A DNA stretch of 64,000 nucleotides from Bryoerythrophyllum caledonicum (lineage: Eukaryota; Streptophyta; Bryopsida; Pottiales; Pottiaceae). The stretch covers positions 13,037,519 through 13,101,518 of the forward strand of contig OZ020521.1 in NCBI GenBank assembly GCA_963971425.1. The letters run 5' to 3'. A program made the translations under genes and the position numbers. The notes beneath the pieces are model-generated. The model had not been told where the DNA came from and made no database searches. It worked only from the letters and a program-made list of their open reading frames with translations. The number at the start of each line of letters is the position of its first letter. Positions within the stretch are counted from its first letter, which is position 1. Below are positions 28,887 through 55,682 of this stretch, in pieces.

Positions 28887-30379
28887 CTACTATAAAGTCT
28901 AAGAGTAAGATCTTGTTGTGTGTTGATGATGGTCATGTTCCCCCGAAAGATTTTCCATCCAAGGTTTAAGGGTCGTGGGTGAAACGACACGAAGCACGGC
29001 CTAATTCGATCGGTGAGTGGATGTTTCCAACACTCCTACTCCCGATTCTATCACGAGGATGGACTGACCCAAGACCAAGACCCAATTTTTAGTCGTTGAG
29101 TTTTAGCTCGATGAAGCCGCCGAAGAATCCTATTAAGGACTACCCTCCAAGGGCAAACGACAAAAAGCTAACCGAATTGAGGGATGTCTCCACGAGCATC
29201 ACCCCGTTGGAAAGTTGTCCCCCAACTGGCGCCACACGGTACAGATCCTTACTGTGGGGCTGACCCAGACCTCAATTTGATAAAAGGTGGGGTTCCTCGG
29301 TATCTTTGGTATCCCCCCTTCCACCTTTTACCACCTTGAACTAGGCATTATCCACTAGGAGGAAAACGACTCAATCACGGGACGGCATGCAACAAGGTGT
29401 GTATACAATGTTATCACTGTGAAGAAGACATACCTCGATGCATCTCCAGCCACCCTATCACCATTAGTTGAAGTCGACCGTGGACCTAATTGCACTCTAT
29501 CGATGCTAAGGCCAACCAATAAGTCACATACAATGTTATAGAGGGGGATAACCTACCTTGAAGCAACTCCAGCCAATCCACTTGTTAGCACTAGATTTGT
29601 TGCATGCAATTTCGTGGTTGGCCAAACCTAGCGGTTCTAAGGCAAGTGTTCCACACGGCTCAAGTGGGAAATCAGGGTTTTCTAACCCTAGTGTGGTCAC
29701 CACATCCAAGTTGGTCCTATTTACTACTCGTGGTCCTACAAAGAGGGTGTAGTGCACATACCGTACGCAGCGCTCCTTCCAAACAGCACCCCTACGTCTT
29801 GGATGCGTCCACGACTCCAACTCCCCTCCAAGTGGCTCATTCACACATACATTGCCTTAACTTGCAACTTTTGATTCAACCATTCCAATTACACCAAGTT
29901 GTTCTTACCTTGGTGGTTAGTCAAGCGCGGGGGGAAGGAAGGGGCGCCCTTGTCCCATACCCGGGCACTTGCACCCTTCCCCTTCGGCCTAGGAGCTCAC
30001 TGGAATTCTTACGAACACCGTGGGAGGGCCTCAACCTTTCACTCCTAGGCCCCTTGCTCGACTCAAAGCCACAAGACTAGAAGGGGATCCTTCCAACACA
30101 AGGTGTTTTGTGGTTGGAAGGTCGGGAAACCACACTCCCTTCTAGACCCCCACCTTAAAACACAACTTGGCACGTTCATTCATTCACAAGACTTTCAAAC
30201 ATGCACACAATTGGCACTCAATCAACCATTCATGACCAAGGTTGGGCACTTATCTTTAAGCCACCCGATGCCGCTCCTTACACCACGAGTCTCTTAGCGT
30301 TTGTACCCCTACATCCAACGGTAGAATAATTAACACAATCAAACAATGAGCACGCCTCCTCCCGGCGGACGCACCAAAA
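28887..30379 (-). other. gypsy 5' leader
   Basis: Untranslated leader between LTR and gag start, homologous to 58903-59953. Several short frames occur on both strands but none is conserved as a protein. Confidence 0.65.
30359..30376 (-). promoter_or_regulatory. primer binding site
   Basis: Minus-strand TGGTGCGTCCGCCGGGAG three bases inside the LTR edge at 30380, identical to the site at 58905-58922. Confidence 0.75.
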
Positions 30380-33620: not shown

Positions 33621-35229
33621 ATAACCACTATCACCAGAAGTTCAGGGTCATCCCATGCGGTACTCTGCTTACTGAATGCCTGAATGTAGGGTCTAGGCGA
33701 CTGAATGCCTGGATGGAGGTTCTTGGCGAAAGCAATATGCATGAGTCTACAATTTTTGTCGACTGATTGCCTGAGTTGAAATCCGCACATGATGAAATCT
33801 GAACGTTGAGATTTCTTCAGCAAACCCAAACTTGCTCGCCGATACTCAAAATTGCAAGTTGTGATACTTGCACGCCGATACTCAAACCTGAACTAGCACG
33901 TTGTGATGAGATCTGCATGCCGATTCTTGGAATAGTCTTGAACAGTAACTGGGAGTAGTATGGACTTGATATAGGTCGCCGTAGAACTGGTATGTAAGTC
34001 GAAACAGTCTAGACAGGTATACGAGGCTCTAGGAATCGGTGAGAAAGTCAGAATAGATAGTAACCAAGCCAGTCCAATAGAAGGCCTCGTGTACGAGGTC
34101 TCCTTCCGACCTCGACGCTGTCATGTCGGGCAAGAATCTTCTTCCAGTCGGCTCTAGTAGAATGGAAGTTGGGACGTCGGTTTAGGTAGATATAACTTCG
34201 GAAGAGGTAGACGAGAAAGTTGGAGAGGGATTCCCAACAGTTTGTAATACGTCGAGAGAGAGCGCTTCAGGTATTGCAACGACGCGTTAACCAACAACGT
34301 CACAAATTTCTGCACTTTTTCAACCTACTCCAAACCCTAACCCGAAGCAAGTCCAAACAAAGGTCAGTTTTTATACCTCAACGCTTGGTGACGGTACTGT
34401 CGCTGCAGCCATATCCTTGCTCGTGCCTAGCGATACCTACCACACCCACATAATGCGTTAGAACATGCACAGAGACCTTCACAGCAATCACTTATCGGCC
34501 TGTGAGTGCAAGAGACAAAGAGAAGAGGTCAGTAAGCCGCCGTCGAAGAAATGCATTCCTGGGCGTTTACCCTAAACCGAACTATTCTCGTGGAGAAAAA
34601 TCATCCATCCTCATTCATTCACACGAAGAATATGAACAGCCCAACATGTTAAGATGGCCGTCCAACATAACTTATCCACTAAGGTACCGTCACAGTCTTA
34701 CACCAAAACACTTCAAAATTGTTGGATTCTAGTGCAATGAACAAAGAAGGAAACAAAAACTGTGACTTCTAGTTTTGTCCGTAGGATCTCAATTAAGACT
34801 AATTCAGTAACATACTCAAAAAAATTCATTAATTTTGACCGCACGGATTGAAATATTATAGTGTTTGAAGTCAAGCACATGATTCATTATCTTTCCTGCG
34901 TTAACTGGATCAGCAGACTTTGACTTCACTTGGAGTCAAAATTTTGCACTACAAAAGGTCGAAATCCATTACCATCTTGTTAAGCATGATGTTAGTTCCT
35001 TATTCTCCAATTTATGGAGGTAGAAGACGGGTGTAGCATATTCAAAACAAATGTGCAAGGAGTGGAGGTTCAAAATATGCCAATTCACACTTTAATTTTT
35101 TGTGAACTTATTATGTTTTAGATTGGTAATCCGAATGGTCAATATGAAGGTTTACACCACATATTGCTGTAGGTATCATAAAAAGTGAAAAATATAAAGT
35201 TTTCTAGGTTTTATGTGGAAAAGAAGAAG
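33621..35229. other. no gene seen
   Basis: Unique-looking sequence that becomes AT-rich after about 34700. Only short unsupported frames. It is the left flank of the MULE insertion, and its right edge TTTTTTTGG continues at 49611. Confidence 0.45.
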
Positions 35230-35238
35230 TTTTTTTGG
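35230..35238. other. 9-bp target site duplication, left
   Basis: TTTTTTTGG immediately outside the left terminal inverted repeat, matched at 49611-49619. Nine bases is the usual MULE target duplication length. The low complexity of the T run tempers confidence. Confidence 0.65.
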
Positions 35239-35294
35239 GGGGAATGCTATTATGTGAGCGTAGAGCGGTGAGCTGTGAGCGGTGAGCAGAGAAT
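35239..35294 (+). repeat. MULE left terminal inverted repeat
   Basis: GCTATTATGTGAGCGTAGAG followed by three GGTGAGC-like subrepeats and CAGAG. It is inverted relative to 49557-49610. The outer 7-8 bases (GGGGAAT) do not match the right end (CGAGCGAC). Confidence 0.8.
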
Positions 35295-35499
35295 TTTAAG
35301 CGACGACGAGATGAAAGTTCCAAAAATTTAGATATTAGGGATTTATTACCGTGGATTATCAGAGGTTGGATGGATTTTTTTAGTAATTAGAGGTTCTATA
35401 ACCGTGGGATTTGTTTAAAGTGAGTGGGGCATTTTGACATTATATCTGTTGTATTGAAATTTTGAGAAAAAAAGAGCAAACAAAACGGTAGGAGGATTT

Positions 35500-35860
35500 G
35501 ATTTTATTTGATTTTTTTTTATATTGTTGTTGTTGTTCTTCATCTCCATTCATCTTCTTTTTCTTCTTCTTTGTTTTTTTTCTTCATTCTCTTTTCTTTT
35601 TCTTTTTCTCTTTCCATTATTTTCTTATCATTTTCTTTTAAGATTATTCTCTTCTTCTTCTTTTCCATTTTTTCTCTTCTTCATTTCCTTCTTTTCTTTA
35701 TTTATATATATATATATATAATAACGTTTTTACCTTTTTTTCTTCTTCTATTTTTTCTTGTTTAAAATTTTATCTTCATTTTCATTTTCTTCTCTTTCTT
35801 TGTCTATATTTTTATTTTATTTTTATTTTCAATTATTTAAAAACATGTTTTTTGCAATGA
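35500..35860. repeat. pyrimidine-rich tract with (TA)n
   Basis: About 350 bp of T/C-rich sequence (TTCTTC, TTTTC runs) with a TATATATA run near 35704-35722, in the left subterminal region of the MULE. It produces Phe/Leu/Ser frames that are not genes. The rest of 35295-36310 shows no gene and probably includes the 3' UTR of the minus-strand gene. Confidence 0.8.
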
Positions 35861-36310
35861 GAAACCTCAAGCTTTAATACTGGTTAGTGATAACCAGTAC
35901 AACTTCCATCCATATCATTTCTCTAGATAAGTCACCGTTACCCACTAATACAAAATGACTTTGATAAATACAATCCTTGCTAAACTAGAAATTCAAATTT
36001 GAGTGAAACATCTTTGCTAATCATATACACACATCTAATTGACTAACTAAGGGTAAATTCTCATAAATTCTACCAATTTATTTACTTCATTATATTTAAT
36101 ACATTAGTCACTATTTATGGCCCACAAATAAAACTATGAATAGTAGTAGGCCATATACAAAATAGATAATATATAAAATAAATATTTAGAAACACATGTA
36201 ATGATTGTTAGCCAAATTGCACATAAAAAATATGCATGTCGGACTCACAAATCAATGACACTGAAAATACAAATACTAGTAAAATCACGGGCTACAAGTG
36301 AAGACCCTTC

Positions 36311-39300
36311 CTAACTACTATATCCCTCACTAACATCCCCTTCCGAAGCCTCAACATCCATAAATTGTTCCACACTTGAATGGAATGCGCGGCGGGGAGG
36401 AGAAGGAGCAGGAGAAGGAGTGTGTGCATATGCAATAGCCATATCCTCGGCATAGCTTGGAAGCGTGAAAGCCTCTAGAAGGCTCGAACGAAAAGCTCTG
36501 CATAACATACAGTTAGTGATCCGCTAACAAGTAGAGTATATGGATTACAAATATTTTAGAATGGATAAATAAAAAAAAACTTACGCACAGGCAAATCGAT
36601 TGCGTTTTGGCTTCTTTGATGGGCGCTCCTCTAAAAGAGGCTGGCTAGCCTTCCTGACAGCCTTCCTGGCAACCGCCGGAGGAGGAGAAGGCTTAGCAAC
36701 CAAAGGCTGTAGGATTGTAGTGAAGATATCCAGATCATCTTCAAATGCAACAATGTGCCTACCAGTGGCTTGGCAGGCACGAATAGAGGCACCTGCAAGA
36801 ATTAGAAAACATATAAATAATCATATGATAATGGTTAACAATAAATCAAATTGCAAAAATAAATAAAGAGTTCATGAAAGGTACCAGTGGAGGCCTTCCA
36901 ATCCAACACGATGTCACCAGGTTTTGTGAAGGACTCAATCAAGACTTGCATGAAAAGGGGATCTTTTTCCCGTGCACCACGCCAGGGCAAACTCCCTCGC
37001 ATGAGCTGGTTCTTGACGGTGGTGAGATTGAAAAAAGTGTCAGTCTGCTCAACTTCGAGACCCACATCCGAAAGCTCGCGATTCTCTATGATAGAGAACT
37101 GTGATTGAATGGGTTCATCACGGACAAAGAGCTGGATCCAAAAGCGATGCGACTGCAATAGACCCAATCCATTAAAAATCAAAAATGATAAAAAAAATTC
37201 CAAAAGAGACAATGGAATTGGAAAATATATCGTACCGTGGTCGAGGGGAACTTTGGTGATGCCAAGGCAATATCATTAATTCCCCACCAATCTTTACAAA
37301 GGTGGAAGCTATACTGCTCCGCAACTTCTTCAACTTCGGAACAGAGTGCACGATCATCGCAGTGGAATAGAAGAATGGCGGCGTCATCATGCAAATATGC
37401 ATCACCAAACTCAAAAATGGACTCTACATACCGTTCAGGTCGTGAATTCCATTGTGGAATTGTCGAAGGCGGCATTGAAATGCCAGGCACTGGCAGATTC
37501 TCTGGAATGTCGGCGATGATGAGATCCAGACCGGTGTTCTTACAATGTGGAGAAGACACACGACGTGTTCGACCAGAACCAACCTGCATGAAACAATAAG
37601 GAATGAGATGAAATGATGAATAATCTGATGAATAGTCTAAAGAACCAAAATAGGTAATAAATATGAAAAAATACCTGGGTAATAAATTGATGAAGCTTCT
37701 CCCATAATTGATCAGGGCCTGTTGGCCTACCAAGAGTCTCCATTACTGCAAAAAGGGATGCATTTTCCAACATCACCTCCAAAGGATGTATCTGTGCAAC
37801 AGAGGTTGAAGCAGAGGGCAGCTGGCGGACTTTCCGTTGCCCAAGGAGCTCCTCTGTGGCTTGTGCAACACTTGAAGTGGTAGGGAACTGAGATGAAGAG
37901 TGTGGTAACATACCATGTTGGTCACTTGTTGGGGCAGTGATATTGCTAGGTAATACTGAGAATGTAGGAAGACTAGAGGCCGCAGCAGTAGTGGCATCTC
38001 CTACCTCCTTCACTTGCGCAACCTTGTCTACCGCCTCCTTCTGGGCTTTGGTCAAAGGTTTCTTCTTCTGAGAAGAACCGTCGCCACGAACATGAATTGG
38101 TTGAATGGAGTCTTCCTCAAGAAGGTCGACAACGTCGGTAGCTCCAATAGGAGACACAGAAGCAGCATCAAGGCTATTCCTAATGTGTACCTCATCGTCC
38201 GGAGTATAGTTTGGTGAACAATCAAGGTACCAACACCCAGCTTGGAGGTGATTGGTTGCGTACCTCTTTTGTTGCACTGGAGTATACATGCAAAGGTCGG
38301 AGGAAAGCTTGATCCAAGCTTCAACATAGGGTGGGAGAGATTGAGATGGAATGGCATGTTTAGTAATGAGCTCCCGCATCATATATCTGCCAAAAGAAAA
38401 ATATTTAGTAAGCTCAAAAAATTCAATGTAGTAAAAGGAGACAATTATAAATATATAAGGTTCATATATTACCGATATAACACCCGTCTCTCTGCCAATT
38501 GAGCTCCAGGATGATCATCAAATATGGATCCCTTCATAAAAGGAGGGGTAGCATTTGGGTGGAGAAAAGTTTGGAACGCTTTGTCCCAAAGTAAAATTCT
38601 CCAAGACTCCACAAAATCTGAGGGCTTTTTGATGCCTCCAGATGCACTCCAATCAATATTACCCAATTCATCACCAGAAATCTCATTGAACTGCTTGACA
38701 ACACGGTCTTCGATCTGCAAAGAAGATATATAATCAAGGAGTGGAAATAAATGAAGTTACAGAAGAAGAAGAATGAATGCAAGGAAATCACATTACCTGA
38801 GCCCAAAATGTGGCTTTGTTGAGCCAAGTATCAAGGTCTGCCTCCTTAAAATTGGTAGGAAGGAAGCGGTAGGCGGCTCGCCGCATAGTGCCTGAATTCC
38901 ACCACCGAAGCCATTTGGCTTTGAATTCTGGCTCCACCACAGATGTTGCAATCTTTTGAAGCTTCTCAATCGTCATCTCCGGCTTGGAATTTGTACTATA
39001 GTGCAAATTGATCTGTTGCCCATAAAAAATATTTATGATATATGAGAATAAATAAAATATGAAAAGTCATGAAAGACAGTATATGTAAATGACATGAAAG
39101 AAGAAATAGAGATGAAATGCTCTAACCTGATTGAAGAAATCCTCCCCATTTCTAGGATTCGCCACAGTCAAGTACTTTAGAAAGTCCCTCTGCTTAATGA
39201 CTTTAATGGCTTTTTCTGAAGCAGCCTGCATGACCCCCCACACGGCCTCCGCAGTCCTATCCTTCTCCTGAGTACGATCATTGTACTCACGGACAGCCTC

Positions 39301-41904
39301 ATCAGAAGCACGGGATATGTCCGCCTGGGGATAAGTTTCTATTATCAGCAACTGAGTATTTATTAAATATTGAGTGAAATAATCTTGAAATCTCAAATGT
39401 GATAAAAGAAAACGCACCCGATACAAAAAGGAGATGAAGACATCAACCGTGAGAGGGAACCACGTCGGCCTACTCTTTTTTATTTTTCCACAAGTTTTGT
39501 ACTCAGTGGGAGTCAGCAAGTCACGAAAGTCCTCCAATGAAAGTGCTCCAAAATATCGCATCCGTGTCAATCGAGCAGGGAGACTGGTCTTGACATGATC
39601 ATTTTGAGTGGACCTAATTTGAGAGTGGTTAAAGAAAATAAATGAAAAAATGGAATTTGAATAAATAGAAATTTCAAAGACATACCAGTTAACGTCATTC
39701 ATTGCATTCAGAAGAGGTCCAATGCGGCCTCGGGGGTCCAAGACGATGCAGATGACTGAGAAATGCCAGCGAGCCTCCTCAGAATGATCGTTGTTGATTT
39801 TGCGCCACCAAGCGGAGAATCTGTGATTGCCATCCCAAACATAGAACATCTTACCTCTCAGATGAGCGTATAAAGGTGAAGACTCAAGCTGGGCGTCAAA
39901 CCGGTCATTTGCATCATGCCAATGATGACCCCAAGAAATCCGATGCTCGTCTCCAACGTCAGTAGTGGTCTCCTTATCATTGTAGATGGACACGTATAGA
40001 GCACGATCTGCATCATCATATCCATCACAATCTTCAAAAAGAATCTCCAAGCGTCGGACATCCACCTCTTGAACTGGTCTAACTCGTGGCAAAGGTAAGA
40101 GCCTGCATAATGGGATTCGTAACCCTGAATCCAAAGATCGCATGCTATTTAAAACGGAGTGATAGTCTCGCTTCTCCAACTTGCGCCGCAATCGCTCCCC
40201 TTCTTTAGCATCGTGGCAATCTGGTGGACACTTCACCGTTGTGCAGTCGTCGGAGTCGGCAACTGAATCCACCGAATCAGAGACCTGTATCCAAATATTA
40301 AAGAATTCACTAAATCATAGCAATACTAGATAATGCCAAAGCTTTCAAAAAAACAAATCAAGGTAACACACATATCATGAAAGTAGAGTGGTCTCAATAC
40401 ATTCAAAATAGTCAGGGTTAACACATGCGGCACATTAAACATGGGGCATGAAATATGAGCACAGGATAATTTCCATGAAAAGTCCAATTAAATTGACATT
40501 ATTTCAAATCGAACAGGAGCACAACACTTACGTCCATATAAACATATCATAGTATAGACAATGTGCACAATTCAGGCAGAATATTAACCCCTAAAGTCGA
40601 AAGGCCTCTAAACTGCCAAAAACCCTCAAAACTGCCCTCTTTCAATGCAAGGTGAAAATCTTTATCTTTTGACAAATTTTCGAGTATGTAACCGTAAGAT
40701 CTAGTACCTAACTTATACATGTACATGCATACCAAATCTTAGATTCAAATTTCTCACCATTTGTGAGATCGAAATGATCAAAGTTGAAACAAACCATTTT
40801 TTCCTTGTTGTAGAATGGAAAACTAATGTATTGGGGGCCAAAAAACAATTTTTGACAGGAAATTTGACATGAGGCTCTTCAAATTCTTGTTCCTATGTGA
40901 GTATATGTCCATATGATTTTTACCATCTCAGGACCTATAAAACCTTAAGAAATGCTTAATTTTTCACATAGAGGTATGCTGATATACAAATACAAAAGCT
41001 TAATTTCAACAATACAGGCATGAAAAAGAGTATTGAATTGAAAATCCAAACGGTGAGATCATGCTTTACTACCCCTTTTACATGAACGAAAAACAAAATT
41101 CGAAAAAATGTAAAATCTCAATTTTTGGTGAATTTTTGAAGTTACTGCGATCTATCTGATTTTGGGCAGATTTTGAGAACAAATGAGCATACACTGCAGT
41201 TTTGGACAGATTTCAGCATGCCCTAACAGTGTTTTCAAACTTTGACCGTGATTATCTCCTAAAGTATGAGGAATTTTGAAGCATGAATGGTGTCATTTTA
41301 AAGGTATGGGAAAACTCTACAACCTTCCAGAAGTCGATTTCGACTTTAGGGGTTAACAAGGACATATGGGAGTACTTCGAGATCAAGACCTACATGGGCT
41401 TCATTGACGTGAAGAATATGCATGCACAGACCATCGACGCGTTGATGCTGCTCGACCTGCTACCTTTGAAGATCTCGACCTTTGACCGTGAATATCTCCT
41501 AAAGTATGAGGAATTTTCAAGCATAAATGGTGTCATTTTAAAGGTCTCGGAAAACTCTACAATCTTCCAAAATTGTAACTTCATAAGATCTTAATTTAGT
41601 AACTGAGAGCCTGACCAGAGTCAGATTGACAACATTCTGGTCGATTTCGAATTTCGGGGTTAAGGCTTACCTCAGTCGCCATGCAAGGGTTCGGGGCCGA
41701 AGGCTCCAGCAGCTCTACATCCTGTGTCATCTCGGCTCCCTCCTGTGACCAACAAGAGAACCGTAAGGTTTTCAAAACATTTTGCATCGAGCGCACCAAG
41801 CGCAAATACAGTTATCAACTGAAAGAACCGTAATCAACTGGAAGACTTACATTCGTAACAACAGGAGGGTTCGGTGCCGAACTCTCTCCGAGAGGGGCCT
41901 CCAT
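36311..41904 (-). CDS. transposon-borne ParB-like / DNA methyltransferase-like fusion protein, 12 exons
   Basis: Exons (minus): 41904-41851, 41742-41671, 40284-39686, 39613-39418, 39324-39127, 39012-38797, 38714-38473, 38386-37675, 37583-37236, 37152-36885, 36792-36585, 36497-36311. All introns are GT-AG and the sum is 3300 bp (1099 aa) without a stop. Residues 98-240 look ParB/Srx-like: IPLCRLLPLPRV at 99-110 and YVWDGNHRFSAWW at 190-202. The middle (310-760) is unassigned, with a Lys- and Ser-rich linker. Residues 764-990 resemble a beta-class N6/N4 amino-methyltransferase, with motif IV (LDLIIADIPENL, 782-793) before motif X/I (TKPGDIVLDW to GRHIVAFEDD, 955-985). The tail has a basic RPSKKPKRNR. 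Motif IV is DIPE, not DPPY/SPPY, and motif I is DWKASTG, so catalysis is doubtful. The first two exons share SAPNP and look duplicated. The start could lie further upstream. Confidence 0.75.
40285..41670 (-). other. long intron of the methyltransferase-like gene
   Basis: Inferred 1386-bp intron (GAG|GTAAGC ... ATACAG|GTCTCT), phase 0 on both sides. It carries a 95-bp direct repeat at 41239-41332 and 41480-41574. Between them is a stop-free, less AT-rich stretch reading NKDIWEYFEIKTYMGF on the plus strand, possibly a captured gene fragment. An inverted pair of TTAACCCCTAAAGTCGAAA-like words lies at about 40584 and 41338. Confidence 0.55.
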
Positions 41905-43983
41905 CGTTCTTCTGTCAACTTCCTATCACCAGCCAAAGTCCCCCACAACACAATTATCAAACTGAACGACCTACACGGAAGAAGTCGACACTGTTGGTGA
42001 GATTGTGCTAGTCCCGGCCCTGGGTGTCCCGCTGCGAAGTTTCCCTGAGTGTCCTCCTGCAATTCCGGCACTGGCTGCGAAGTTTCCAGGTGCAAGTCTC
42101 GCTGCAGGTCCAGGTGCGAGTCTCGATGCCAGTCCCGGCACTGTGTTCCGCGGCGAAGAGTCCCGCTGCGTGTCTGGCCACTGGCTGTCACGATGGAATC
42201 TGTTCCGTGGTGCCTAAAATTCGGCGCTGAGAGGTCGAGGTCTTGTCGCCAGGAAGTCGGCGGAGATACTGCGTTCTGCGCATCGAGAAGGCTTCGGCGC
42301 CGAAGCCTCCTCCTCTCGAAGCTCAATCATCCTCGGAGCAGCTCACAAATATGCTGTTGGAACCTAATAAGCTGTTGGAACCTAACGTCGCACTTCGAGA
42401 CCTAACAAGACCTAACGGAAACCTTCGAGACCTAACGAGACCCATAATCGATCTAGCGTTCGCACCAGGACACAACCAGAGTACGCCAACAACCACAAGT
42501 TTCAACTTCGACGAATCCAGCACACACACGACAATCACCACATACGCGACGAATCCAGCAACAAATCCAGCAAACTTCTCACCAAGACTGTGACGAATCC
42601 TGCAAACTTCTGTGACGAATCCTGCAAGACTGAACCGGCGAATCCGTTTCTGCCGGCACTCCGTCAGAGTTGGGATCTGTGATCTCCAGATCTAGAGCAG
42701 GTGAAGGTACATGCACAGGAATATCGTGCACAGAATAGTCATCATCTACACTTCACAGGAACATCGTTGCGAAGATATCTAGACAACAGAGACATTTTAG
42801 ACTTCAAATCTACAAAATACTTTATTCAACACATGAGAGACATGTATTAGTGGTAATAGGTACTTGATGTCTCTCATTGTACACAAGGCTAAAATCCCAT
42901 CTTGGAGTGCGAATCGAGGATTACGACGACGTGAGATTACAGCTGTGGAATATCAAGGACAGAAGAAGCTGGCTCCCAGTGCGATGTTTCTGAAAATTCT
43001 TTTTGAGTGTTAGCGGTAAAAAACAAGAACTTGAGGACAAATGCATGAGACAAGCGTCACACGTTCACCGACCATATACAGTACACAGTCCTGACTCCTC
43101 CCATACCATATATCTTGTGTAACTTGTGTGACACACTTGCTTTCCTCAGGACTCCTTAGACCTTGTCTAGAATCTGATCTCTGGAAATGTACACTGAAAA
43201 TGTACACTTGGAGACATGTATTGATGGAAGAAGATACATTATTGTTTCTGAACTGCTTGTTTTTTAAAGTCTCTCATCGAAATTGTAATATATAGAACAG
43301 ACATAATTGAATGATTTTGACTTGATTTTTTATTAACTATTATTCTTCATTATGATAATTTAGCCCCACGGACATTCAATTTCTGACAAACAGTTTGTCC
43401 CTCTCTTTTGACAAATGGGTTCGACATTTGACAAATTGTGTCAAAAATAGTGGTATGAAGTCTAATCACTGAAGCTCAGTGACTATTCTACCTTCTAAAG
43501 GACCAAATGTATTTGAAGTTGTTGATAATGGCATCAATACCTGATCAAAATGTAACCCACATGTTGAGGGTATTATACTCTTATTTGTTCTCTAATACTA
43601 ATGTATACTAAATGAAGTTTTTCATCCAACAGAAAGCCAAAGTTGGTAAATATTTGATTAGTCTGGTTGAGATGAGTTGGATGAATGATAGTGGAAGTAA
43701 TTTACAATCAAATACTTTCATGATGATAGAAATTTTTGACTTTCAAAGAGTATATTGGTCAATTTCCCTAAAAAGAATATGTTTAGACAAGGCCTAATGG
43801 TTGCCCAAATGAAGCTTCGGCCCCGAAGCCTACCGAGCTCAATATCTTCCAATTCCTTGCCACCATTCCATGAGCATTCCTAATCAATAATATTTGACCT
43901 GAGAAGACTTGCATCTTAAACTCACTTTCTCAAACACACATGAAAAGTCCAAAAAGTTCCAAGCAAAGCAAGTCAAATCTTAC
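41905..43983. other. 5' region of the methyltransferase-like gene; repeats and palindromes
   Basis: GC-rich between 42000 and 42330, with short direct repeats of GCGAAGTTTCC and GGTGCGAGTCTCG type. An 18-bp perfect palindrome GGCTTCGGCGCCGAAGCC lies at 42290-42307 and a related one (CTTCGGCCCCGAAG) near 43814. An upstream non-coding or coding exon of the gene may lie here (minus-strand frame to 42326). From 42340 to 43930 the DNA is AT-rich and I see no clear gene, except a possible 3' exon of the small basic gene around 43800-43890. Confidence 0.4.
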
Positions 43984-44448
43984 CTTTCTCTTCTTTGGTT
44001 CTTCACTGCTTTGACTGTTCAATAAATCATCATGCTCCTCAGATTGACTTGAAGGCGCTTCACTTGTACCTAACTCTAAAAGTGGTTGCTCTTCTTCCAT
44101 CTCGTTTGCCTCCACCTCGGCTCCTCGACTCATCCCTTGCCTCCGCCCCTCCGAGTCACCGCTTCCAGGATTACCGCTCCGAGCACCACCACTCCGCACA
44201 AGGTCTGATGGCAGGCTTCCTTGCACTTCGATAACAGTTTTTAAACTGCCCTTGATTCTGCAATTCTCAGTGTCAAATGATAGCACGCGTGCAGTGTCCC
44301 CCACATCACTGTCTACCCTCGGAGCAACTCTCTTGCTCATCCTATACCTCTTTAGTTGCTTCGTACTAGAGAAGCGTAAACCACGCCTCCTACGTTTCTT
44401 CTTCTGTGCAGTTGCCAAACATAACAACTCCTCTCTCTCCTCTGGCAT
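43984..44448 (-). CDS. small basic nuclear-type protein, first main exon
   Basis: 155 codons from ATG 44448 to a GT donor (AAG|GTAAGA) at 43984, in phase 0. The N-terminus is strongly basic (QKKKRRRRGLRFSS, then KQLKRYRMSKR), a likely nuclear-localisation or DNA-binding segment, followed by DTARVLSFDTENCR and a Ser/Glu-rich acidic tail with EEPKKRK. The same order (KKRRRKRGILFSS, ELQRSRMVKR, TAKVLSFNS) occurs at 50254-50502 in the neighbouring MULE, so it is a conserved element gene. It is transcribed away from the transposase. An acceptor at 44454 suggests a further 5' exon. Downstream exon not resolved. Function unknown; an accessory protein for transposition is a reasonable guess. Confidence 0.55.
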
Positions 44449-44454
44449 CTGGAT

Positions 44455-45522
44455 CTGCAACTCTCAAATGACATCAAAACTCTCACCTTTGAGTATTCCT
44501 GCAAGTTGAAGGAAGAAAGGATGGCTATGTTGAGTCTAGTCGATAGTGTTTGTCAAGCACAAATCTGGGGATACCTATCTTGAATCCAAATAATCGAGAG
44601 GGTAAGATTTAGTCGAAAAATTTACATTGAGGTAAGTTAATCACGCCGCATCTACTCACATGAATTGTGCCGACATGAGATGTAATGTGGAGTCAAGCTC
44701 TCTTGCTTTGTGGCTAAATCCGCAGTCAAGTACCCATGTGTAATGCGCCTAAATCCCTCATTTGCTTTATCTTTGCCCCTCCTTCCTTGGCTCTATTTCA
44801 AATCCAAAACAAATTACATTCACCCTCCCATTCTATTATTATTGATCGCCCACCTTATTTTCAGGTGGACGACTTATTTACAGAATTTTATGTAACAGAG
44901 AGGATTGCCATTCCTCGACTTTTTGAACAACTATAATTCGATAGTTCAAAAATTATCGTATCACCTACCATCTCCATTATTTTGGTGACCTTTAGTCATT
45001 ACTTAATTACATGCATTGTCATGCCACTTTTTGCTTGTCTGGTTCTTACTAATTTTATTGGATCGTATAGTTGTGATTCTAGTCTATTAAATGCTTGAGC
45101 CAGTGATTCATGTATATTTCAAAAACTACTTCGCCGAGCATTGTCCGAGTATCACAATGTAATGTGTTATTTGCTGCCCAATAGGGGCAATATTTATCCT
45201 ATGCTAAAGATCTCTTTATTCTTTTGATCAATAACATTTTACTTATCTTGGCATTCTGTTGTCTCCTTCAATAAGATACAATTTTTTTTGTTATTCTTGA
45301 ATTCCGCCGTCTTCCATATGCTATATATATTTATTTGCACCGCTGTTTGCTTTTGTTAAATGCATTTTTATTACAATGAATAATTATGTTCAATTTACTC
45401 CACCTTTTACAGCGTTGACTTGAATGTACCCTGCTTGGCATATATAATGACTCCAACTGGTTTTCAAGCACCATAATTTGCCTCTTCTTTGTCAAGTACT
45501 AGATTGCACAATTCTTCTTCTG
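44455..45522. promoter_or_regulatory. divergent promoter region of MULE 1
   Basis: About 1.07 kb between the small basic gene (leftward) and the transposase (rightward). A TATATAA at 45441-45447 lies about 80 bp before the transposase ATG, suitable for a plant TATA box. No other gene is seen. Confidence 0.45.
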
Positions 45523-48500
45523 ATGATGGCCTTCATTCATGCGAATGGGCACGGAATCCCTGTCTCATTTCCTATTGGAGATGAAGGGTTTTGTATTGTT
45601 ACAGCTTCTCGATTGAGTCTTAGGTTTCAGTTACAGGAGGAGACCATTCACATCGATCAAGAGATTTTTGACAATGCCTCCGGTGAGCTCACACATACTA
45701 TCGGTCAACTGTCCTATATGAATGATGGTGTAAAGTTCTGGCGCCTTACGCCAGGGAGGTTTAGACTGTATGGTCTCTCTGACTCTCTCCTTAATGGGTC
45801 TGCTGAATTTCTCACGCCAAGGCAGTCATCTACTTCCACGCACAACACACCTCTTGTCCGGTCAGTAAAGATAGAGCCTGGGCTTGAACCTATCCATCTT
45901 CTTAGTGATGACTCCGATGATGACTCTCCAGCTCCTGTACCTCCTCATCCTCGTCCTGTTGACCAACCTGTCTCTTCTCCACTCTCTCAACCCTCTCAAT
46001 CATTTCGGGGTTCTATTGGCAAACCTCCACTTCCTCAACGTGCCTCAAATTCGTTGAGTGTCGTTGATTGTCTTAAAACGTTATCAGCTAGGAAAGGGTC
46101 GAAGTCTGTAGTTACCAAGATTGATTACAACCGTATCAGAGTAGAGAAGGTCGAATTCTTGCCACCCACTTTTGATGGAGACATTGTGTTTGAACTTCCC
46201 CCTATTGGCGCCTCAACAACGCACTCTCAAGCTCGACTCCTCCGTGGGATGGACAAACGACACGACGGACATGCGTGGACACGAACCATCACATCCAATA
46301 TTAAGAACGACATGGGGCTGACATTCAGATCATCATCCTGTTTGGGGCATCTCAAATGTTTTAATGTCAACTGTGATTATGTGACACGAGTTCACCGAAC
46401 CTCAGCGGCAAATGAAGTTGAATGGGATGGGTTCAGCTCTATCACCTTTGACGTAGGATCTGAGCATCCCAAAGGTTCGTCTGTCGTCTGTAAGGTATGT
46501 AAAGTTCCTCCCTCTTGCTTAGCCATCTGTCCTGCAAAAATCTATTATGTTCTTACTAAAGATCATATGACTCGTGCTTGTATCCACCTTGGTTCACATG
46601 CACATCCTGTGAAGATTGGAGTTGATAGGGAATTTGCAGATAGGGCAGATAGTATTCTAGGAGAGCAAGTAGAGAGGACACCTTCAGCCACCAATTCTGC
46701 CATTATAATGGAGGCAAGCAAGGATTTAGTCGGAGAGTTATTGCTTCACTCTGACGATGCACCTCAAACTACTCTCACATTCAAGGAACTTATACCCGTG
46801 CTTAATACTTGCAAGCACATGACTTCGCCAAGCATTCGCAACAAGGTCACCACCTTTCGGTACTTGCGTCGATTTGGAGTTATGGATAGTATTACTAAGC
46901 TTCGCGGATCTAGCAAGTGGGCGTTTGTTCAAGAAAACAAGTTTCCTGGCCAAGGATCGGACTCCGATAAAGTCTTCGTTTTCAAAATGTCTGAAGTTGG
47001 CCCCGGAAGTGGAGTAGATCTTGTAAAGCGGATGCAGTCTGGAGGGGACTTGGAGAACGCATGGATCATGTATGACCACGTCAAGCGTGTCAAAGGATGG
47101 ACTACCATGGCTTGCCATGTTTATGACGCTCAATACTGTCGAGTCATGACTATTGCCGTCTGTGATATGCAGTCAGAAGATGCTACTGCCCAAATATTAT
47201 TTTGGAAGAATCTCAACATCATCATGGCCAGGCATGGCATTTCAAACCCAAAATTTAAAGGATTTATGGCGGATAGTGCACAAGCAAATTGGAATGCTAT
47301 TCGCATCATCTACGGTACTGGAGATGCATCGGTGCCTATGGAGAATCAAGAGAGGACATGTCTCTTCCATTGGACCCAATCTTTGGAGAAACACACAAAA
47401 GCAAGTATTCGGCCGGATCTCCAAGCACAACATCGCCAAATGTGCAAGCAATACAAGGATGCAAAAACCATTGACGAGGCGGAGGCTAGATACCATGCCA
47501 TCCGATCTTGGTGGTTGTCTTCTGGAGCAACAACAAATGAGGAGATCGTCCATCTAGATCTTTGGTTAGCCTTTTGGCATTTTCGCTACCGCCAATGGGG
47601 CGGGTTCATGCAAATGGTATATTTTGACCCATCCTCTTTATGATATCCACGTCAATGTTGAATTTGTCAAATTTTAATCAATGGTTCTAAATCCATTATT
47701 TTGTTTTACTCTAATATTTTGTATAATGCTTGATTTTTGACAGCCTCTCTCCGAACCTGAGTTGGCTGAAATGCCTTCTTGCAATCTTGCGGAGACCGTA
47801 CATAACAAGTGGTTACAACAGTCTGGGAATCGTGGCAATGATCTCTATGTTGCAACTGTGGATGATTATGTTCGAGCCTTCATGCAAGTGGTCGCCTACT
47901 TCCAATATTTGAATGGTGATCGACCAGGCACCGGTCCTAACAAGGAGGAACTCCTCTTACGAGTGGCTCAGCGTACAACTCAACAATCAGGTAATCCTAA
48001 AGCACTCCATGCTGCAATGGCCAAACTACCTGGAGCTTCCTATATTTGTACTCGAGAACCACATCTTGAAGGTGAGGAGGTATTTGGTTCTTTAAAACGG
48101 AAGTTAGATCTTCCTCCCGGTTGCGACGGCGACTCCCACAGACCCGACAAGGTCAACTTCTCTCGGCCTCGTGTTCAAACTAGGCGCGGATCATCAACTT
48201 CCGGAGAGGATGCATCACCAAGAGCTGGAGTTCAAGAAGAGACAAATGAAGATCAACAAAATGCACGTGAAGATGTGGAGACAACTATTGTTGCACCTTC
48301 GAAAGTGCATGTGACTTCTGTCCAAGAAACTGCATGCGATGTGACTGAGTGGCACATTGCAAGATTACCTAAGACCTCAGCGAAAGCATGTTTTGCCCAA
48401 CAGGCAATTACGAAGAAAAAGTGTGTTGCGAAGATTGTCCAAGATGGTAAGAACACGGCGGCTCCAACATACACTGGAATGATGGACAATTACCAGAGGA

Positions 48501-49198
48501 ACCGGATGGAGCGTATGCAGTTCTTCTTCTGCAACGATGATATTGAAAGATGCGTGAAGGGTACAAAGCGCAAGTGGGTGGTGTCAAGACCAGCTGTGCC
48601 AGAGACTTGGCCAGTGAAGATGGGCACTAATCTAACCATCTCTGAGATTCTTGCTTTGGAGAATGCAGGATTTCATCTTCAGCCTCGTGCTGCAATATCG
48701 CCACGGAGATTATTTGAAGGTCAGCAAATTCCAGTCGATTTGTCCGGATATATTTCTCCGGAATTTCCTGATGATCATCCCAAGCGGAGATTTGGAAAAA
48801 ACATTCGTAGGAATGCAAAAGCACCATCATCGAAACAAGCCAATGTTTGTGCATCAGCCCTATTGGTCACAGGCCGTCTTCGCCGGTTGACCATGATACC
48901 TATTCCAGCTCTTGGCTGCGTTGTTACGTTTGATTCCGGAACTCCTCCAAAAATTGAACAATACTCTATCACTGTTGGACAGTTTCCCACTTGTTCATGT
49001 CCATTTTTCCAAGAGATGATGAGGAAATCTCTAGGTAAGCGAGGTCAGTGGACAAATTGTAAACACTTGTATTACATTTTTATTGTGATATGTGGATTAG
49101 ACTCCGAAACTAATGTGTTTATACATGCTCCAAGTCTCAGCTTTAACGAGATCAAGCATATTCTTGAGAGTGGTCTACTTAGGCATCCTATTCCTTAA
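45523..49198 (+). CDS. MULE-family transposase with SWIM zinc finger
   Basis: Two exons, 45523-47616 and 47744-49198, joined by a GT-AG intron (ATG|GTATAT ... GACAG|CCT), giving 1182 aa without a stop. The N-terminal part is acidic/Pro-rich. A Cys/His-rich region at about 250-400 (CLGHLKC, CKVC, ACIHLGSHAHPV) resembles FLYWCH/WRKY-GCM type fingers. The DDE core has CDMQSED (D548), FMADSAQANW (D584) and the CxxH signature CLFH (613-616); the third acidic residue is not assigned. The SWIM finger is C1115, C1117, C1137, H1139 (CSCP ... NCKH). Start chosen at the second in-frame ATG pair, matching the relative at 51189; an upstream ATG at 45478 is also open. It would bind the terminal repeats and cut out and insert the element. 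Confidence 0.88.
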
Positions 49199-49556
49199 GG
49201 TTTCTTATGTCGTTTGGCATCCTTGTACTGCAATCAATATTCAATGAGCAGTAAAAATGTAGTGAGACTAAAAGGGCCACTACAAAGTTTTATCTCTTCA
49301 GTGGTGTAATGTCTTGATTGTACAAATTCCTATTTTGTTTTTTGGCAATTATGTTCATCTATTACTGATTATGTATAATGATTAATGTAATTCAAGTTTT
49401 TTGACCCTAAACCTATTTTAATGGACGTATATTATTTTTTATTATGTAAAACTTACACGGTAATAGGGCTATTTATTTACTAAATATAAATAGAAATGGA
49501 AATTTTATAATAAAATTATAATAAAATAATCATTTTTCCTAAAATGAGTATATTTT

Positions 49557-49610
49557 TTCTGCTCTCTGCTCACCGCTCACTGCTCTAGGCTCACAAAATA
49601 GCGTCGCTCG
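49557..49610 (-). repeat. MULE 1 right terminal inverted repeat
   Basis: Minus strand reads CGAGCGACGCTATTTTGTGA, then GCCTAGAGCAGTGAGCGGTG and AGCAGAG, matching the left end from GCTATT inwards, with one GGTGAGC-type subrepeat fewer. Confidence 0.82.
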
Positions 49611-49619
49611 TTTTTTTGG
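49611..49619. other. 9-bp target site duplication, right
   Basis: TTTTTTTGG directly outside the right terminal repeat, equal to 35230-35238. Confidence 0.65.
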
Positions 49620-49992: not shown

Positions 49993-50502
49993 CTCTTCTC
50001 TTGAAGGCCTTCTTTGTGGAGATGATATACTACCCGAAATATCGTGGCATTGTGCTTCGCTTCCTCCCGCAACTTTTGCCTGACAAACCCACGCAAAGGA
50101 GTTCAATAGACAGGCTTAAAGCACTTTGATATCATTGAGTACACACGTACATAGCATGGAATAACATTTGAGAAGAATCTCAAAGACAACTTTGGGGCTA
50201 GCATGTAACCGACCCTACTGGTCGAATATTTTCAACAACGCTATTACCAATACCTGAGACAATGACTCTCCTTCATTTTCTTCAATGTTTTGAAGTTCGC
50301 AATCACTATCACGCTCGGTGGAGTTAAAGGACAACACCTTTGCGGTTTCGGAAATGTCCACCTGACTACAAAATGCCTTTCGTTTTACCATCCTAGATCT
50401 CTGCAACTCCTTACGACTTGAAAACAAAATACCTCGCTTTCTTCGTCTCCTCTTCTTTTCACACGATGGAACAAAAGATTGGTAGCTACACTTCCCAATC
50501 AT
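49993..50502 (-). CDS. small basic protein of MULE 2 (two visible exons)
   Basis: Exons 50502-50254 (83 codons) and 50079-49993 (29 codons), joined by a GT-AG intron of 174 bp in phase 0; the second exon ends at another donor (GAAGAG|GTTAGC), so at least one more exon follows. The first exon matches the MULE 1 protein: KKRRRKRGILFSS, ELQRSRMVKR, TAKVLSFNS. The second is Ser/Arg-rich (SGSISSPQRRPSREE). No stop interrupts these exons, unlike the transposase beside it. Function unknown. Confidence 0.5.
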
Positions 50503-51188
50503 CTGAGATATGCCAGATTTTCCATCTAACTCAACTTATCAAATTCAACAATTTGCGAATTGAAGATGTAGCTCATAAAAATCAACAGAAATCCACTGTC
50601 GACAGTACACTTCATTATTGCTATATTCAATAGTGTAAATTTTGTCAGAGCTTATCATAGCTATTTAGCTGTCACCCGCTGTCATTTATCAGTATTTATA
50701 ATTAGAAATTATTGATTAGCACAACCTTTATGACCTGGTGAGACATTATTTACATGCACTACCACTATTTTGTACATTTTGTTGAGATTTTTGGAAGCGT
50801 GCTTAGCTAACCTTACATGCTTACTAATAACTTAAGTGTATAAATGTACATTCCAAAGTTCGACTACTACACGCAGATTTACACTAAAAATACCTCACTC
50901 ATTTCACTTTCCAACTGGAAATTTATCTATTATGTTGTCAACTAGATCGGGGATGTTGTTTATGATAAGAACGCCATCATTTTGAACATTGACAGTCTCC
51001 ATTATGTGTTTAATCTAGCGCGACGCATAAAACGGATCTAGACTTGCTGATAATTTTGTCATACTCATTATTATGCTTTTCATCCATTATTTGACAAAAG
51101 GATAATAATTGATTATTTGGAAGTATAAATCTAATTAGGTTGCTTGGTTTAACTCTCTCATTTCATACTTGAACTTCTAAAACTTTTC
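50503..51188. promoter_or_regulatory. divergent promoter region of MULE 2
   Basis: AT-rich spacer between the leftward basic gene and the rightward transposase. A TATAAAT near 51124 lies about 65 bp before the transposase ATG. No gene seen. Confidence 0.4.
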
Positions 51189-54100
51189 ATGATGTCGTCC
51201 GCTGATGTAGGTAGTCTAGGCACAATTCTGATTCATGTTGATGGTCAAGAAATCCCGATTACATTCCGTGTGTCTTTCGATGGTCATTGCTCTGTTAGTG
51301 CGAGTCGACTTTCTTCTAGATTCCATGTACTGCAGGCTTCAATTTATGTTGATGAAGAAGTACGTGATTTAGAGTCTGGAGTTGTTACTCACACCAGAGG
51401 TCAGGGAGCCGTCACTACTATCGAAGGAAAATTGTGGCTGCTCAAGTGTGGTACTTTTAAAGTGTACGGCGTTAGAGATAATACGCACAATTCATCCAGC
51501 CAAATGTTGGCATCGCGTGTCTCTATTACAAGCAACCAACACGATAGTGGTCCTCGGACAATCAAAGTTGAGCCAGGTTCTGAAACAATTCACATTTTGA
51601 GTGATGACTCAGATACAGACACCCCTGTTCTCGTTCATCTAGAGAAACCAGATTCTACTCCATCGCTTGTCAATGTAGATTCTCCAGTACGTGATATCTC
51701 TCTTGACAATCGACCCCTTCATGTGAAACCTCCACATCTACCTTCTAGATCCCCTCCAACTTCCATAGTAGATTGTATAAGGAACTTAGGTGCCAGAAAG
51801 GGGTCAAAGTCCATATTGTCGAGGGTTGATTTTTCAAAGGTCCCCGTTTCTATCGTGGATTGCTTGCCTCCGAGCTTTGATGGGGATGTCATTTTTGTTT
51901 TGCCTCCAGCTTCAATGTTGTCTTCGCAGTAACAAGCCAAGCTATTACAAGGCATGGACAAACGTCATGATGGTCATGCATGGACTCGTACTGTCACAAC
52001 CCACATTCAGAATGACATGGGTCTGTCATTTAGAATGTCATCTTGTCTTGGGCACCTGCAGTGTGTCAATAAGAAGTGCGCGTACCTTGATAGAATTCAT
52101 AGGCCAACTCCTACGAATGAGACCGAGTGGGATGGATCATCGTATTTACGATTTGAAATTGACTCAAATCCTCCCAAGAATTCTACAATCGTCTGCAAAA
52201 TCTGTCAGACTCCTCCTACTTGTTTGAACGTTTGTTCAGCCAAAATATACTATATTTTAAGTCCCCCTCCGATGTCTCGTGCATGTGTCCATATTGGTCA
52301 TCACAAGCATCCAGTCAAAAAGGGTGTAGACAGGGAGTCCGCGGACCGTCTTACGACCCTACTGAGTGACCAGGTGGAAAGAACACCCACTGCCACGAAT
52401 TCAGCTATTATTTTAGAGGCCGGCAAGGACTTTGTAGCATCTATTCTGCTAAATCCTGAAGGTGCGCCTGAGAAAAGTCTATCATGTGAGGAGTTGTTGC
52501 CCGTCCTCGAGACTTGCAAGAACTTGACGTCTCCAAATCTGCACAACCAGGTTACATCATTTCGGTACCTCAGGCGTTATGGAGTCATGGACAGTATTAC
52601 GAAGCTCAGAGGATCCAGCAAATGGGCGTACCTGCAAAATAACATGTTCCCTGGACAAGGTTCTCAATCAGATAAGGTATTTGTTTTCAAGATGTCTGAA
52701 GTTGGCCCGGGGAGTGGTGTTGACCTTGTTAGGCGAATGCAATCTGATGGAGATTTGTGCAAATCATGGATGATGTTTGATCATGTCAAGCGTGTGAAGG
52801 GTTGGACCACGATGGCTTGTCATGTGTACGACTCATCATATTGTCGTGTCATGACCATAGCTGTTTGTGACATGCAATCTGAGGATGTTGAGGCCCAGCT
52901 TGTATTTTGGAAGAACTTGAATGTCGTTGCAGAACGACATGGAATTTTGAAACCTCAGTTTAAAGGATTTATGGCGGACAGTGCCCAAGCTAATTGGAAT
53001 GCAGTGAGGATCATCTACGGTTCCGGTGATGCAAAGACCCCAATGGAAAATTGTGAACGCACGTGTCTATTTCACTGGACGCAATCTCTGGAGAAGCATA
53101 CAAAAGCTGACATTCGACTCGACCTCCAAGAGCAGCACCGCTCTCTATGTAAACAATACAAGAATGTTGATTTGTTGGAAGATGCAGAGAGGAAGTACCT
53201 TGCCATCCGGTCATGGTGGTTGTCATCAGGCGCTACAACCGAAGAAGGTGTTCTTCGCCTCGACTTGTGGCTAGCATTTTGGCACTTTCGTTACTGCCAA
53301 TGGGGTGGATTTCTTGAGCTTGTAAGTGATGTCTTCTTTGCACGTTTGATTTGTTTTTTATAATTAGAGTTGTTATCGCTACGGTGATTTTCTGGCTAAC
53401 GTTTTGGTCCATGAGTCAGGATCTAACGGAGGAGGAACTTGCGGAAATGCCTTCCTGCAATCTCGCTGAGACGGTGCACAACAAGTGGCTTCAACAATCC
53501 GGAAAACGAGGAAATGATCTCTACGTAGCAACGGTGGATGATTATGTCCGAGCCTTTACGCAAGTTCTAGCATACTATCAGTTCTCCAAAGGTGAGCGTG
53601 TAGGCACGGGACCTAGTAAGGAAGATCTTCGTCTGCGACTTGCCCAACGAAATGCAAAAAGCTCCGGAGATCCGAAGTTGCATGCGGCGTTAGAAGAGAT
53701 GAGAGGCGCTTCGGAATTTTGCACAAGAGAGCCACACTTGGAAGGCGAAGAGGTTTTCTTCTCTATAAAGCGGAAGGCAGATATTCCCATAGGATCAGAG
53801 TTTGACTCACATCGCCCTGACAAAATTAGCGTCTCTCGACCCATGAAGAGAACACGCTACGATGCCTACGCCAGCATTGTCGATCTTACTTCAGAAAAGG
53901 TGCCTGCCCCTACTATACAACTGAATCCACCTGAAGTGCAGAGTAGTCCATATGAAGAGCCAACAACAACCGTCCCAATTCCATATCATACGAAGGCAGT
54001 TCTTGAGACGCCTTGTAATGAGGAGTGGCATATAGCGCGGCTTTCGAAGAATTCAACGAAAGCATGTTTTGCACAACATGCTATCACCAAAAGAAAATGC

Positions 54101-54883
54101 GTGGCGAAAATAGTTCAATACAACAAACCTACTACTGCTCCTACTTACACAGGCATGATGACGTCATACAAGAAAAACAAGGTAGAAGAAATGCAGTTTT
54201 TCTTTTGCAATGATGATATTGAACGTTGTGTGAAGGGCACTAGGCGCAAGTGGGTTGTTGCTAAACCGCCTGTGCCAGAGATTTGGCCCGTAAAGCTTGG
54301 TACTAATCTTATACAAGAAGAAGTGTTTGCTCTCGAACATGCTGGATTTCGCTTGGCCGAACGACCGGCCTTTGCACCGCACTAGTTGTTCAGTGATTTC
54401 AATGGTCTCATCAATTTTGATGACTTCCCGGCACCAATATCCCCCGACGAGTATCCAAAGCGCAGATTTGGGAAGAACATTCGACGCAACTCCAAGGCAC
54501 CAACAACAAAGCATTCCAATAGCTACGCATCAGCGCTTTCAATGAATGGTAAAATTCTGAAAGCCACCCTGCTTCCTTCTCCAGCACTAGGTTCAATTGT
54601 ATCATTTGAGTCTTGTCAAGGATCCAAATCATCCCATTATCTCATCACTATCGGTCAATTTCCAAGTTGTAATTGTCCTTTCTTTAAGGATATGGCAACA
54701 AAGTCATTAGGTAAGCGTGGTCAATGGGTAAATTGCAAACATATGTATTATGTTTTTACCCGGCTTTGTAATCTGCTTCCTGAAGTAGATCAGTTTATCC
54801 ACGCACCTAGTTTCAGCTACAACGAGATCAAACGTGTGTTAGAAAACCTGCTACCACACTGTCACACTATAAAAACAGTGTGA
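51189..54883 (+). pseudogene. MULE transposase pseudogene
   Basis: Homologous end to end to the transposase at 45523-49198, with the same single intron (53322-53419, CTT|GTAAGT ... GTCAG|GAT). Shared landmarks: GMDKRHDGHAWTRT, KMSEVGPGSGVDLV, CDMQSED, FMADSAQANW, CLFHWTQSLEKHTK, and the SWIM finger CNCP...NCKH. Two in-frame stops break it: TAA at 51930-51932, just before the conserved core, and TAG at 54383-54385, before the SWIM finger. No frameshift is evident, so the damage is slight and probably recent. Downstream, 54884-55629 has no gene. Confidence 0.85.
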
Positions 54884-55629
54884 CAAATAGTTCAACTGTA
54901 CTTCTTATTCCTTCTCTAACTGAAATCGCGGTGAGACAGAAAGGGCCACCGTGTAATATTGTCGTACATGCGTCTCCCCACTATATTATTATCATCACCA
55001 ATATTCTCTTACAAAGTATCATCCTTCTTATAAAAAAACCAGGCATGATGCATGAATTAATTTCAAATCTAATTAGATAAATATTTCTTCTGTATCTACC
55101 ATTGACGTCATTCTATATATTCCCAAATTCTAGTCTGCACTTCTAATACTATCAAGGTAAGGGAGAATTAGGTTGTAAACAAAAAGTTAAGTTCATCATA
55201 TATGCAATCTTCCCCGCATTGCATATTTCTACCTTGTGAGTGGGAACAACATGGCCAAACTTCAACTTTATATTGGAACAATTATGTTTTTGATGGTACA
55301 ATGTTAAATAAGATAGTCTTTAAGTATTTAAAACATGCATGATTTAAGTATATTCGGGCGGAATATATGAGATCTTTCATTCTGTATGTCTGTAACTGAT
55401 TAAAAATATGTTCATTTCCACGGTTATAGGCTCATCTATTCTTCCACAACATAAGGCCAAAGTTTTTACCAATCTCCTTTTTCACGATTATAGGTTCATT
55501 CATTTTCCACGATACTCACCATATTATGAACTCAAAATAGTCAAACTTCTTATTTTAATGTACATCAGCAAATTCTTGAAACTAATATCCATGTATTTTA
55601 AGAAAAAACCTGCCAAAAATCCTAACTTT

Positions 55630-55682
55630 TCTGCTCACCGCTCACCGCTCACCGCTTTCTGCTCACAAAATAGCTTCGCTCG
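55630..55682 (-). repeat. MULE 2 right terminal inverted repeat
   Basis: Minus strand reads CGAGCGAAGCTATTTTGTGA, then GCAGAAAGC and three GGTGAGC subrepeats. It shares the outer 8 bases (one mismatch) with the right end of MULE 1. The next bases, GTGAATTGG, are codons of the interrupted gag-like gene and are the predicted 9-bp target duplication. Confidence 0.8.

Follow-up and report, generated by a model that had tools for sequence, protein, structure and literature searches.

A 64,000-nt stretch of contig OZ020521.1 (the window) carries a DNA transposon that is young, recently moving and of autonomous type, and that holds a second large gene in addition to its transposase. The product of this cargo gene has a predicted ParB/sulfiredoxin (Srx) fold and a methyltransferase-like region, and probably has an accessory role, acting on the DNA of the element itself and aiding its persistence (at a probability of about 0.6).

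The element, its copies and its cargo gene

The element is complete and extends from 35239, where its left end GGGGAATGC starts, to 49609, where its right end GCGTCGCTC finishes (14,371 bp), and it is flanked by a 10-bp target-site duplication (GTTTTTTTGG). The terminal inverted repeats (30 nt, 87%) are imperfect and short for a Mutator-like element (MULE). Just inside the 14 terminal bases of both ends are arrays of a 7-bp motif, NNNGAGC, each with five in-phase units. Eight of the nine near-identical copies for which the right-end region was also retrieved have the same ends and a perfect 10-bp duplication, the right end of the ninth lying beyond the retrieved piece. Over the left 9.9 kb, 20 other copies were retrieved, and the GGGGAATGC start was at the expected place in 19 of them and 14 bases earlier in c28. 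A scripted count of the left ends (n = 21) gave five NNNGAGC units for 19 of them, against two for c23 and c28; the value for c23 is an artefact, as its first unit is changed and its sequence still shows five. The terminal array at the left end of c28 (L028) is truly shorter than five units. Counts at the right ends were one unit in c28 and none in c27 because single units have changed, and the repeats are still visible in both sequences.

SWIM evidence and the length of the duplications make a MULE the best assignment, with a catalytic domain that lacks profile support. Target-site duplications of 8–11 bp are given for MULEs in the available text of a survey (PMC6446971), a range that includes the 10-bp duplications of the window element, of the eight near-identical copies and of c27 and c28. 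The same text states that the SWIM zinc finger is not present in every MULE (PMC6446971). The transposase (transposase 1; two exons, 1,182 aa) had 56 relatives at 30–82% identity in a database search, none with precomputed domains. When exon 1 of the window protein was aligned with 30 of these 56 (31 proteins), D518 and D584 were invariant, which makes them candidates for two acidic residues of a MULE-type DDE domain, and C613 and H616 were kept in at least 90%. Pfam scans of the 31 aligned proteins gave one SWIM match, one weak match to Transposase_mut (0.034) and no MULE-domain match. For the window transposase alone the SWIM score was 9.2 bits, under the cut-off; its relative P0055 passed the cut-off (22.8 vs. 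19.6), and the SWIM region of P0055 aligns with the CSC...CKH of the window protein.

The cargo gene lies on the strand opposite the transposase and has 12 exons and 11 introns, all GT-AG, encoding 1,099 aa (1,100 codons with the stop) with no internal stop. This model is supported by the near-identical copies, by substitutions biased to third positions, by relatives of exon 3 and by a distant homologue that shares introns. A database search with exon 3 returned 43 relatives at 35–82% identity, many of which end at or shortly beyond its splice donor (judged from every second aligned row). The distant homologue (L038; CADCWO010000058.1, a Synechococcales bin) is a full-length relative with 25–45% identity by segment and GT-AG introns, five of them at the same places as in the window gene; it looks like a eukaryotic sequence in a bacterial bin, and is probably a contaminant of that bin. 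No transposase was found in the 4.7 kb of L038. A longest contig of 674,632 bases is listed for both exon 3 relative P0065 and transposase relative P0037, a hint of linkage. The spliced 1,099-aa query gave no match in the database search, probably because exon-sized database proteins fell outside the length limits, and no cargo relative was found in viral contigs. The original prediction had described a 12-exon gene with GT-AG introns and no stop, lying wholly within a MULE-like element that ran to 49610. The gene model and near-identical copies confirm the exon structure, and the ends and duplications the enclosure; base 49610 itself belongs to the target-site duplication.

A 991-bp query covering exons 3 and 4 gave at least 40 genome matches at 96–100%, a lower bound since 40 of the 76 candidates were scored. 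Ten near-identical cargo matches co-locate with ten near-identical left ends, at a distance that is equal within 2 bases. The gene is present in all of the 21 copies examined, comprising ten young (window included) and 11 older copies, and is true cargo, as had been proposed, and travels with the element. That unrelated repeats happen to flank a host gene is ruled out by the shared spacing of end and gene in the ten near-identical copies, and is further countered by the presence of the gene in all 21 and by the selection described next.

Frame and splice sites are intact in nine of the ten young copies, including that of the window. All 11 older copies are damaged by one or more stops, frame breaks or changed splice sites (c21 just by an altered splice donor), and their ratio of replacement to silent substitution rates (dN/dS) against the window is 0.27–0.46, dead phase included. 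Between the groups, 12 silent and four replacement differences are near fixation (ten of ten young alike, and at least ten of 11 old alike). Variants within the old group (135 silent, 314 replacement, 25 stop) are near the neutral expectation, which per silent change is 2.4–3.2 replacement and 0.13–0.19 stop changes; near-fixed differences and old-group variants are distinct by Fisher test (p = 3.6e-4). Because the young/old differences are mostly silent and the old copies drift near-neutrally, the moving lineage has kept the cargo protein under purifying selection, with old insertions decaying freely.

An older, related MULE (element 2) is represented in the window by its right part, at 50320–55681, with a transposase and terminus of its own. 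Its right end, at 55681, has a five-unit array like that of the younger element (element 1), and the flanks suggest that element 1 inserted inside it. Neither a GGGGAATGC left end of the older element nor a second cargo gene (E ≤ 1e-3) was found in the window. Two complete carriers of element-2 type, c27 and c28, were examined elsewhere in the genome. Each has its own 10-bp duplication (CGTATGGCAC and GTTGTATGTT, respectively), an element-2-type right end, a left end almost as in element 1, and a cargo gene with 97% DNA identity to that of element 1 (96% at third codon positions). Beyond the cargo they resemble the window flanks 34039–34645 and 49717 onward. The similarity to 34039–34645 marks part of the left half of the older element. 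The backbone transposase was read in c28, which was covered end to end (13,997 bp), and c27 was covered at its two ends; the c28 transposase is 57–60% identical to transposase 1, and over 5 kb the DNA of c28 is 93% identical to element 2 of the window. Third codon positions of the two window transposases are 40% identical. In another copy, c22, the similarity stops at the place that corresponds to 43645. Since near-identical cargo occurs in two backbones with transposases of only about 60% identity, the left module, cargo included, has been exchanged between two old element lineages, recently relative to the split of their transposases. The second intron of the cargo gene is long and contains a 98-nt direct repeat (41235–41332 and 41475–41572, 91% alike), and this zone is where the similarity of c27 and c28 to element 1 ends.

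Domains of the cargo protein

Structure prediction and fold search of exon 3 gave a predicted ParB/Srx fold, and the first 14 of the 34 matches listed are ParB, Noc, KorB or PadC. With 7bm8, 93 of the 148 residues modelled (52–199) align, leaving about 55 extra. A fold search of viral structures returned ParB-like phage proteins (E 1.8e-3 and worse). A G-x-x-R-x-x-A motif at the start of a helix is typical of ParB and Srx, and exon 3 carries such a stretch, GNHRxxA, at a helix start. The likeness to the ParB N-domain/sulfiredoxin superfamily (7bm8, 6sdk, 2rii) thus lies in the predicted fold and this stretch; the differences are the extra residues, the lack of a significant sequence match (searches of PDB sequences with exon 3 gave chance-level matches only) and the absence of a helix-turn-helix family from the Pfam scan of the cargo protein.

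Towards the C-terminus, residues 944–993 match PF01555 at 1.9e-4 in the whole protein and 6.5e-5 when the domain is scanned by itself. For the L038 relative the match to PF01555 is at 1.8e-5 and that to a CcrM model at 1.4e-4, the best PHROG match of the cargo protein is PHROG 3008 (2.6e-7), and a two-row profile matched DpnA at 0.0018. This sub-threshold profile support spans the stretch from motif X to motifs I–III. The canonical motif IV of beta-class N6/N4 amino-methyltransferases is (D/N/S)PP(Y/F/W), and motif I is FxGxG. At the place of motif IV the window protein reads DIPENLPVPG and L038 DVPEDLPVPG, and at that of motif I they read DWKASTGAS and DITASTGAS, respectively. Nineteen of the 21 copies read DIPE, and two old damaged copies NIPE and EIPE. 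The change is common to both distant homologues, so it is not a matter of recent decay. Ordinary catalysis by the domain is doubtful because the motif IV place reads D[IV]PE and not DPPY, and, from these residues, ordinary methylation of N6-adenine or N4-cytosine is no likelier than a structural or altered role.

Of the domains first proposed for this protein, the ParB-like segment holds as a predicted fold. The methyltransferase order of motif IV before motif I is upheld in part: sub-threshold profiles cover motif X to I–III, and motif IV has neither a significant alignment nor DPPY.

Proposed role, alternatives and known systems

As an accessory protein of the element, the cargo product would use its ParB/Srx-fold domain to recognise or load onto element DNA, perhaps at the NNNGAGC arrays of both ends, and its C-terminal methyltransferase-derived domain would act on, or sit on, that DNA. 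The element might thereby stay expressed or be better mobilised, a role like that of VANC (anti-silencing) or mudrB (insertion helper). The idea first put forward, that the element marks or binds its own DNA and so escapes silencing, is at the level of inference.

Several results weigh against this role. On the ParB side, Foldseek matches of the domain in the PDB have E values of 0.044 or worse, and no ParB family was matched in the Pfam and NCBIfam scans or in the PDB profile search. Profile searches proposed for the methyltransferase part reached PF01555 only under its cut-off of 26.7 (23.4 bits for the window protein and 25.2 for L038, covering just the final quarter of the profile), and no methyltransferase match in Pfam or NCBIfam exceeded its curated cut-off. 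In both homologues a Glu replaces the aromatic residue of DPPY. The motif IV stretch gave no significant alignment, and DIPEN is paired with DPPYN by position alone (−2.7 bits). Structure prediction, which had been suggested for both regions and gave the fold of exon 3, produced an unusable model of the methyltransferase-like domain (from L038, intron read through, four rows; mean confidence, pLDDT, 45.5). The selection signal is built on 16 near-fixed differences and pairwise dN/dS, and variants among the ten young copies (nine silent, nine replacement, one stop) are below the neutral expectation but give a weak signal. A stop interrupts the cargo gene of c9 (L009), which belongs to the ten young copies, and transposition in trans could carry such defective copies. 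The two element-2-type carriers are old and damaged, the cargo of c27 having one stop and three altered splice sites, and that of c28 one stop and four.

Tentatively, the domain may instead be dead as an enzyme and serve as a scaffold that binds DNA or S-adenosylmethionine, or as a mudrB-like transposition cofactor, rather than as part of an anti-silencing factor. Motifs IV and I are altered in two homologues that are conserved around them despite their low identity by segment, and the whole protein is under selection; however, non-canonical motifs can be active.

An active DNA amino-methyltransferase, guided by the ParB-like domain and writing N6-methyladenine (6mA) or N4-methylcytosine (4mC) on the element, as proposed for algal proteins, is unlikely. 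The PF01555, PHROG and CcrM-type matches over the motif X to I–III stretch point towards it, as do the ASTGAS loop and, in motif IV, the D and the P in third position, all of which are kept in both the window protein and L038. Ordinary activity is nevertheless rated low because the motifs are altered: both proteins have D[IV]PE for DPPY/F/W and KASTG or TASTG for FxGxG, and motif IV is without a significant alignment.

A more elaborate scheme, and a rather improbable one, is a transposon system resembling parS or iterons. The ParB fold would load at the 7-bp arrays and spread or clamp, and the altered, possibly non-methylating domain would block silencing; the advantage conferred by the module would have driven its moves between transposase lineages and its spread, with different transposase superfamilies, across algae and plants. 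Simple hitch-hiking of a captured host gene, as in Pack-MULEs and without function for the element, is very improbable. Host gene capture is described as frequent in MULEs (PMC6446971, available text), but the 12-exon gene is present in 21 of 21 copies, is under purifying selection, occurs on two element backbones and has relatives elsewhere; a single-copy host parent was looked for within the listed matches of the exon 3 and 4 query.

The nearest known counterpart of the accessory protein is that of Sola1-1_Ec32 from Ectocarpus, a DNA transposon described as having an accessory gene with ParB and N4/N6-methyltransferase domains, with green and red algal cases cited in the same text (PMC12477816). 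In the available description, its protein has 1,104 aa (1,099 aa in the window), combines ParB-like with DNA-methyltransferase domains and is encoded antisense to the transposase in a large DNA transposon, as in the window (PMC12477816). The two differ in that Sola1-1_Ec32 is a Sola-1 element of a brown alga and the window element a MULE of a probable plant, the cargos being compared by description only. A fungal host, suggested at first by the retroelements, is rejected: the genome has 58 matches to the chlorophyll a/b-binding family PF00504 (E ≤ 0.001), so its owner is a photosynthetic eukaryote. The single protein compared with solved structures is of plant type; among chains of ordinary length it is nearest to 7xqp_a and 8htu_U, which come from moss complexes, and a higher score was given by 9vfj_2, a chain of 620 residues. 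VANC of the Arabidopsis VANDAL elements is likewise a non-transposase MULE gene, associated with short repeated motifs in non-coding element DNA; it lowers DNA methylation, and no ParB or methyltransferase domain is named for it in the text available (PMC5735166). In maize MuDR, mudrB is a further non-transposase MULE gene, apparently required for integration there (PMC6446971, available text).

No MULE with a ParB or DNA-methyltransferase cargo was found in the literature, subscription journals being largely uncovered. The main text of the MULE survey, as available, mentions neither, and its table lists other cargo, including SET (PMC6446971). The novelty first claimed has to be narrowed, ParB-methyltransferase cargo being already known from algal transposons (PMC12477816, as available). 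What is new is the MULE carrier, the probable plant host, the evidence of selection, the exchange between element lineages and the altered catalytic motifs, which together extend the algal cargo type to a MULE and a probable plant. Self-defence of DNA transposons against silencing is understood for few elements, and a selected cargo on young copies, exchanged between lineages, makes the existence of their own epigenetic or partition-like accessory systems directly testable; as a caution, ordinary enzyme activity may have been lost from the methyltransferase part.

Feature coordinates and neighbouring sequences

Table 1. Positions of the element ends, cargo exons and transposase genes in the window.
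Feature	Position	Strand	Basis
Target-site duplication GTTTTTTTGG, left copy	35229..35238	.	Sequence; perfect 10-bp duplications at 8 other copies
Left terminus: GGGGAATGCTATTA followed by five in-phase NNNGAGC units of 7 bp (35253–35287) and by AGAGA	35239..35292	+	
Cargo exon 12, with stop	36311..36497	-	
Cargo exon 11, follows motif I	36585..36792	-	
Cargo exon 10, PWRGAREK (motif X-like), DWKASTG (motif I-like)	36885..37152	-	
Cargo exon 9, DIPENLPVPG at expected motif IV place	37236..37583	-	
Cargo exon 8	37675..38386	-	
Cargo exon 7	38473..38714	-	
Cargo exon 6	38797..39012	-	
Cargo exon 5	39127..39324	-	
Cargo exon 4	39418..39613	-	
Cargo exon 3, predicted ParB/sulfiredoxin-fold domain, YVWDGNHRFSAW	39686..40284	-	
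Cargo exon 2	41671..41742	-	Similar stretch in c27, c28
Cargo exon 1, start codon	41851..41904	-	Similar stretch in c27, c28
Further open stretch 'KKRRRRGLRFSS...', like fragment 50320–50433 beside second transposase	43984..44448	-	Coding status unproven
Transposase exon 1 (conserved D518, D584, C613-x2-H616)	45523..47616	+	Alignment
Transposase exon 2, C-terminal SWIM-type CSC...CKH	47744..49198	+	Profile match of relative P0055 and alignment
Right terminus: 5 in-phase 7-bp units (49561–49595, minus-strand reading) and 14 terminal bases ending GCGTCGCTC	49561..49609	+	
Target-site duplication, right copy	49610..49619	.	Sequence
Second related transposase, older element	51228..54859	+	60.5% and 58.0% aa identity to transposase 1, two aligned parts

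The open stretches with a basic motif (KKRRRRGLRFSS...) at 43984–44448 and 50320–50433 lie head-to-head with each transposase, and are possibly a third gene of these elements. For 43984–44448, no excess of third-position changes was seen among the aligning copies, and no Pfam family was matched.

About 29 kb separate the inverted arms at 29929–30108 and 59190–59369 (74 and 90 nt, 86% and 73%), which enclose both MULEs. Further to the left, retroelement-like copies at 40–6119 and 8649–14728 are both on the minus strand, 8,609 bases apart, and their open reading frames of 1,191 and 840 aa look identical. A dense minisatellite that advances mostly by 13 and 19 bases occupies 17193–18990, where several frames are open.

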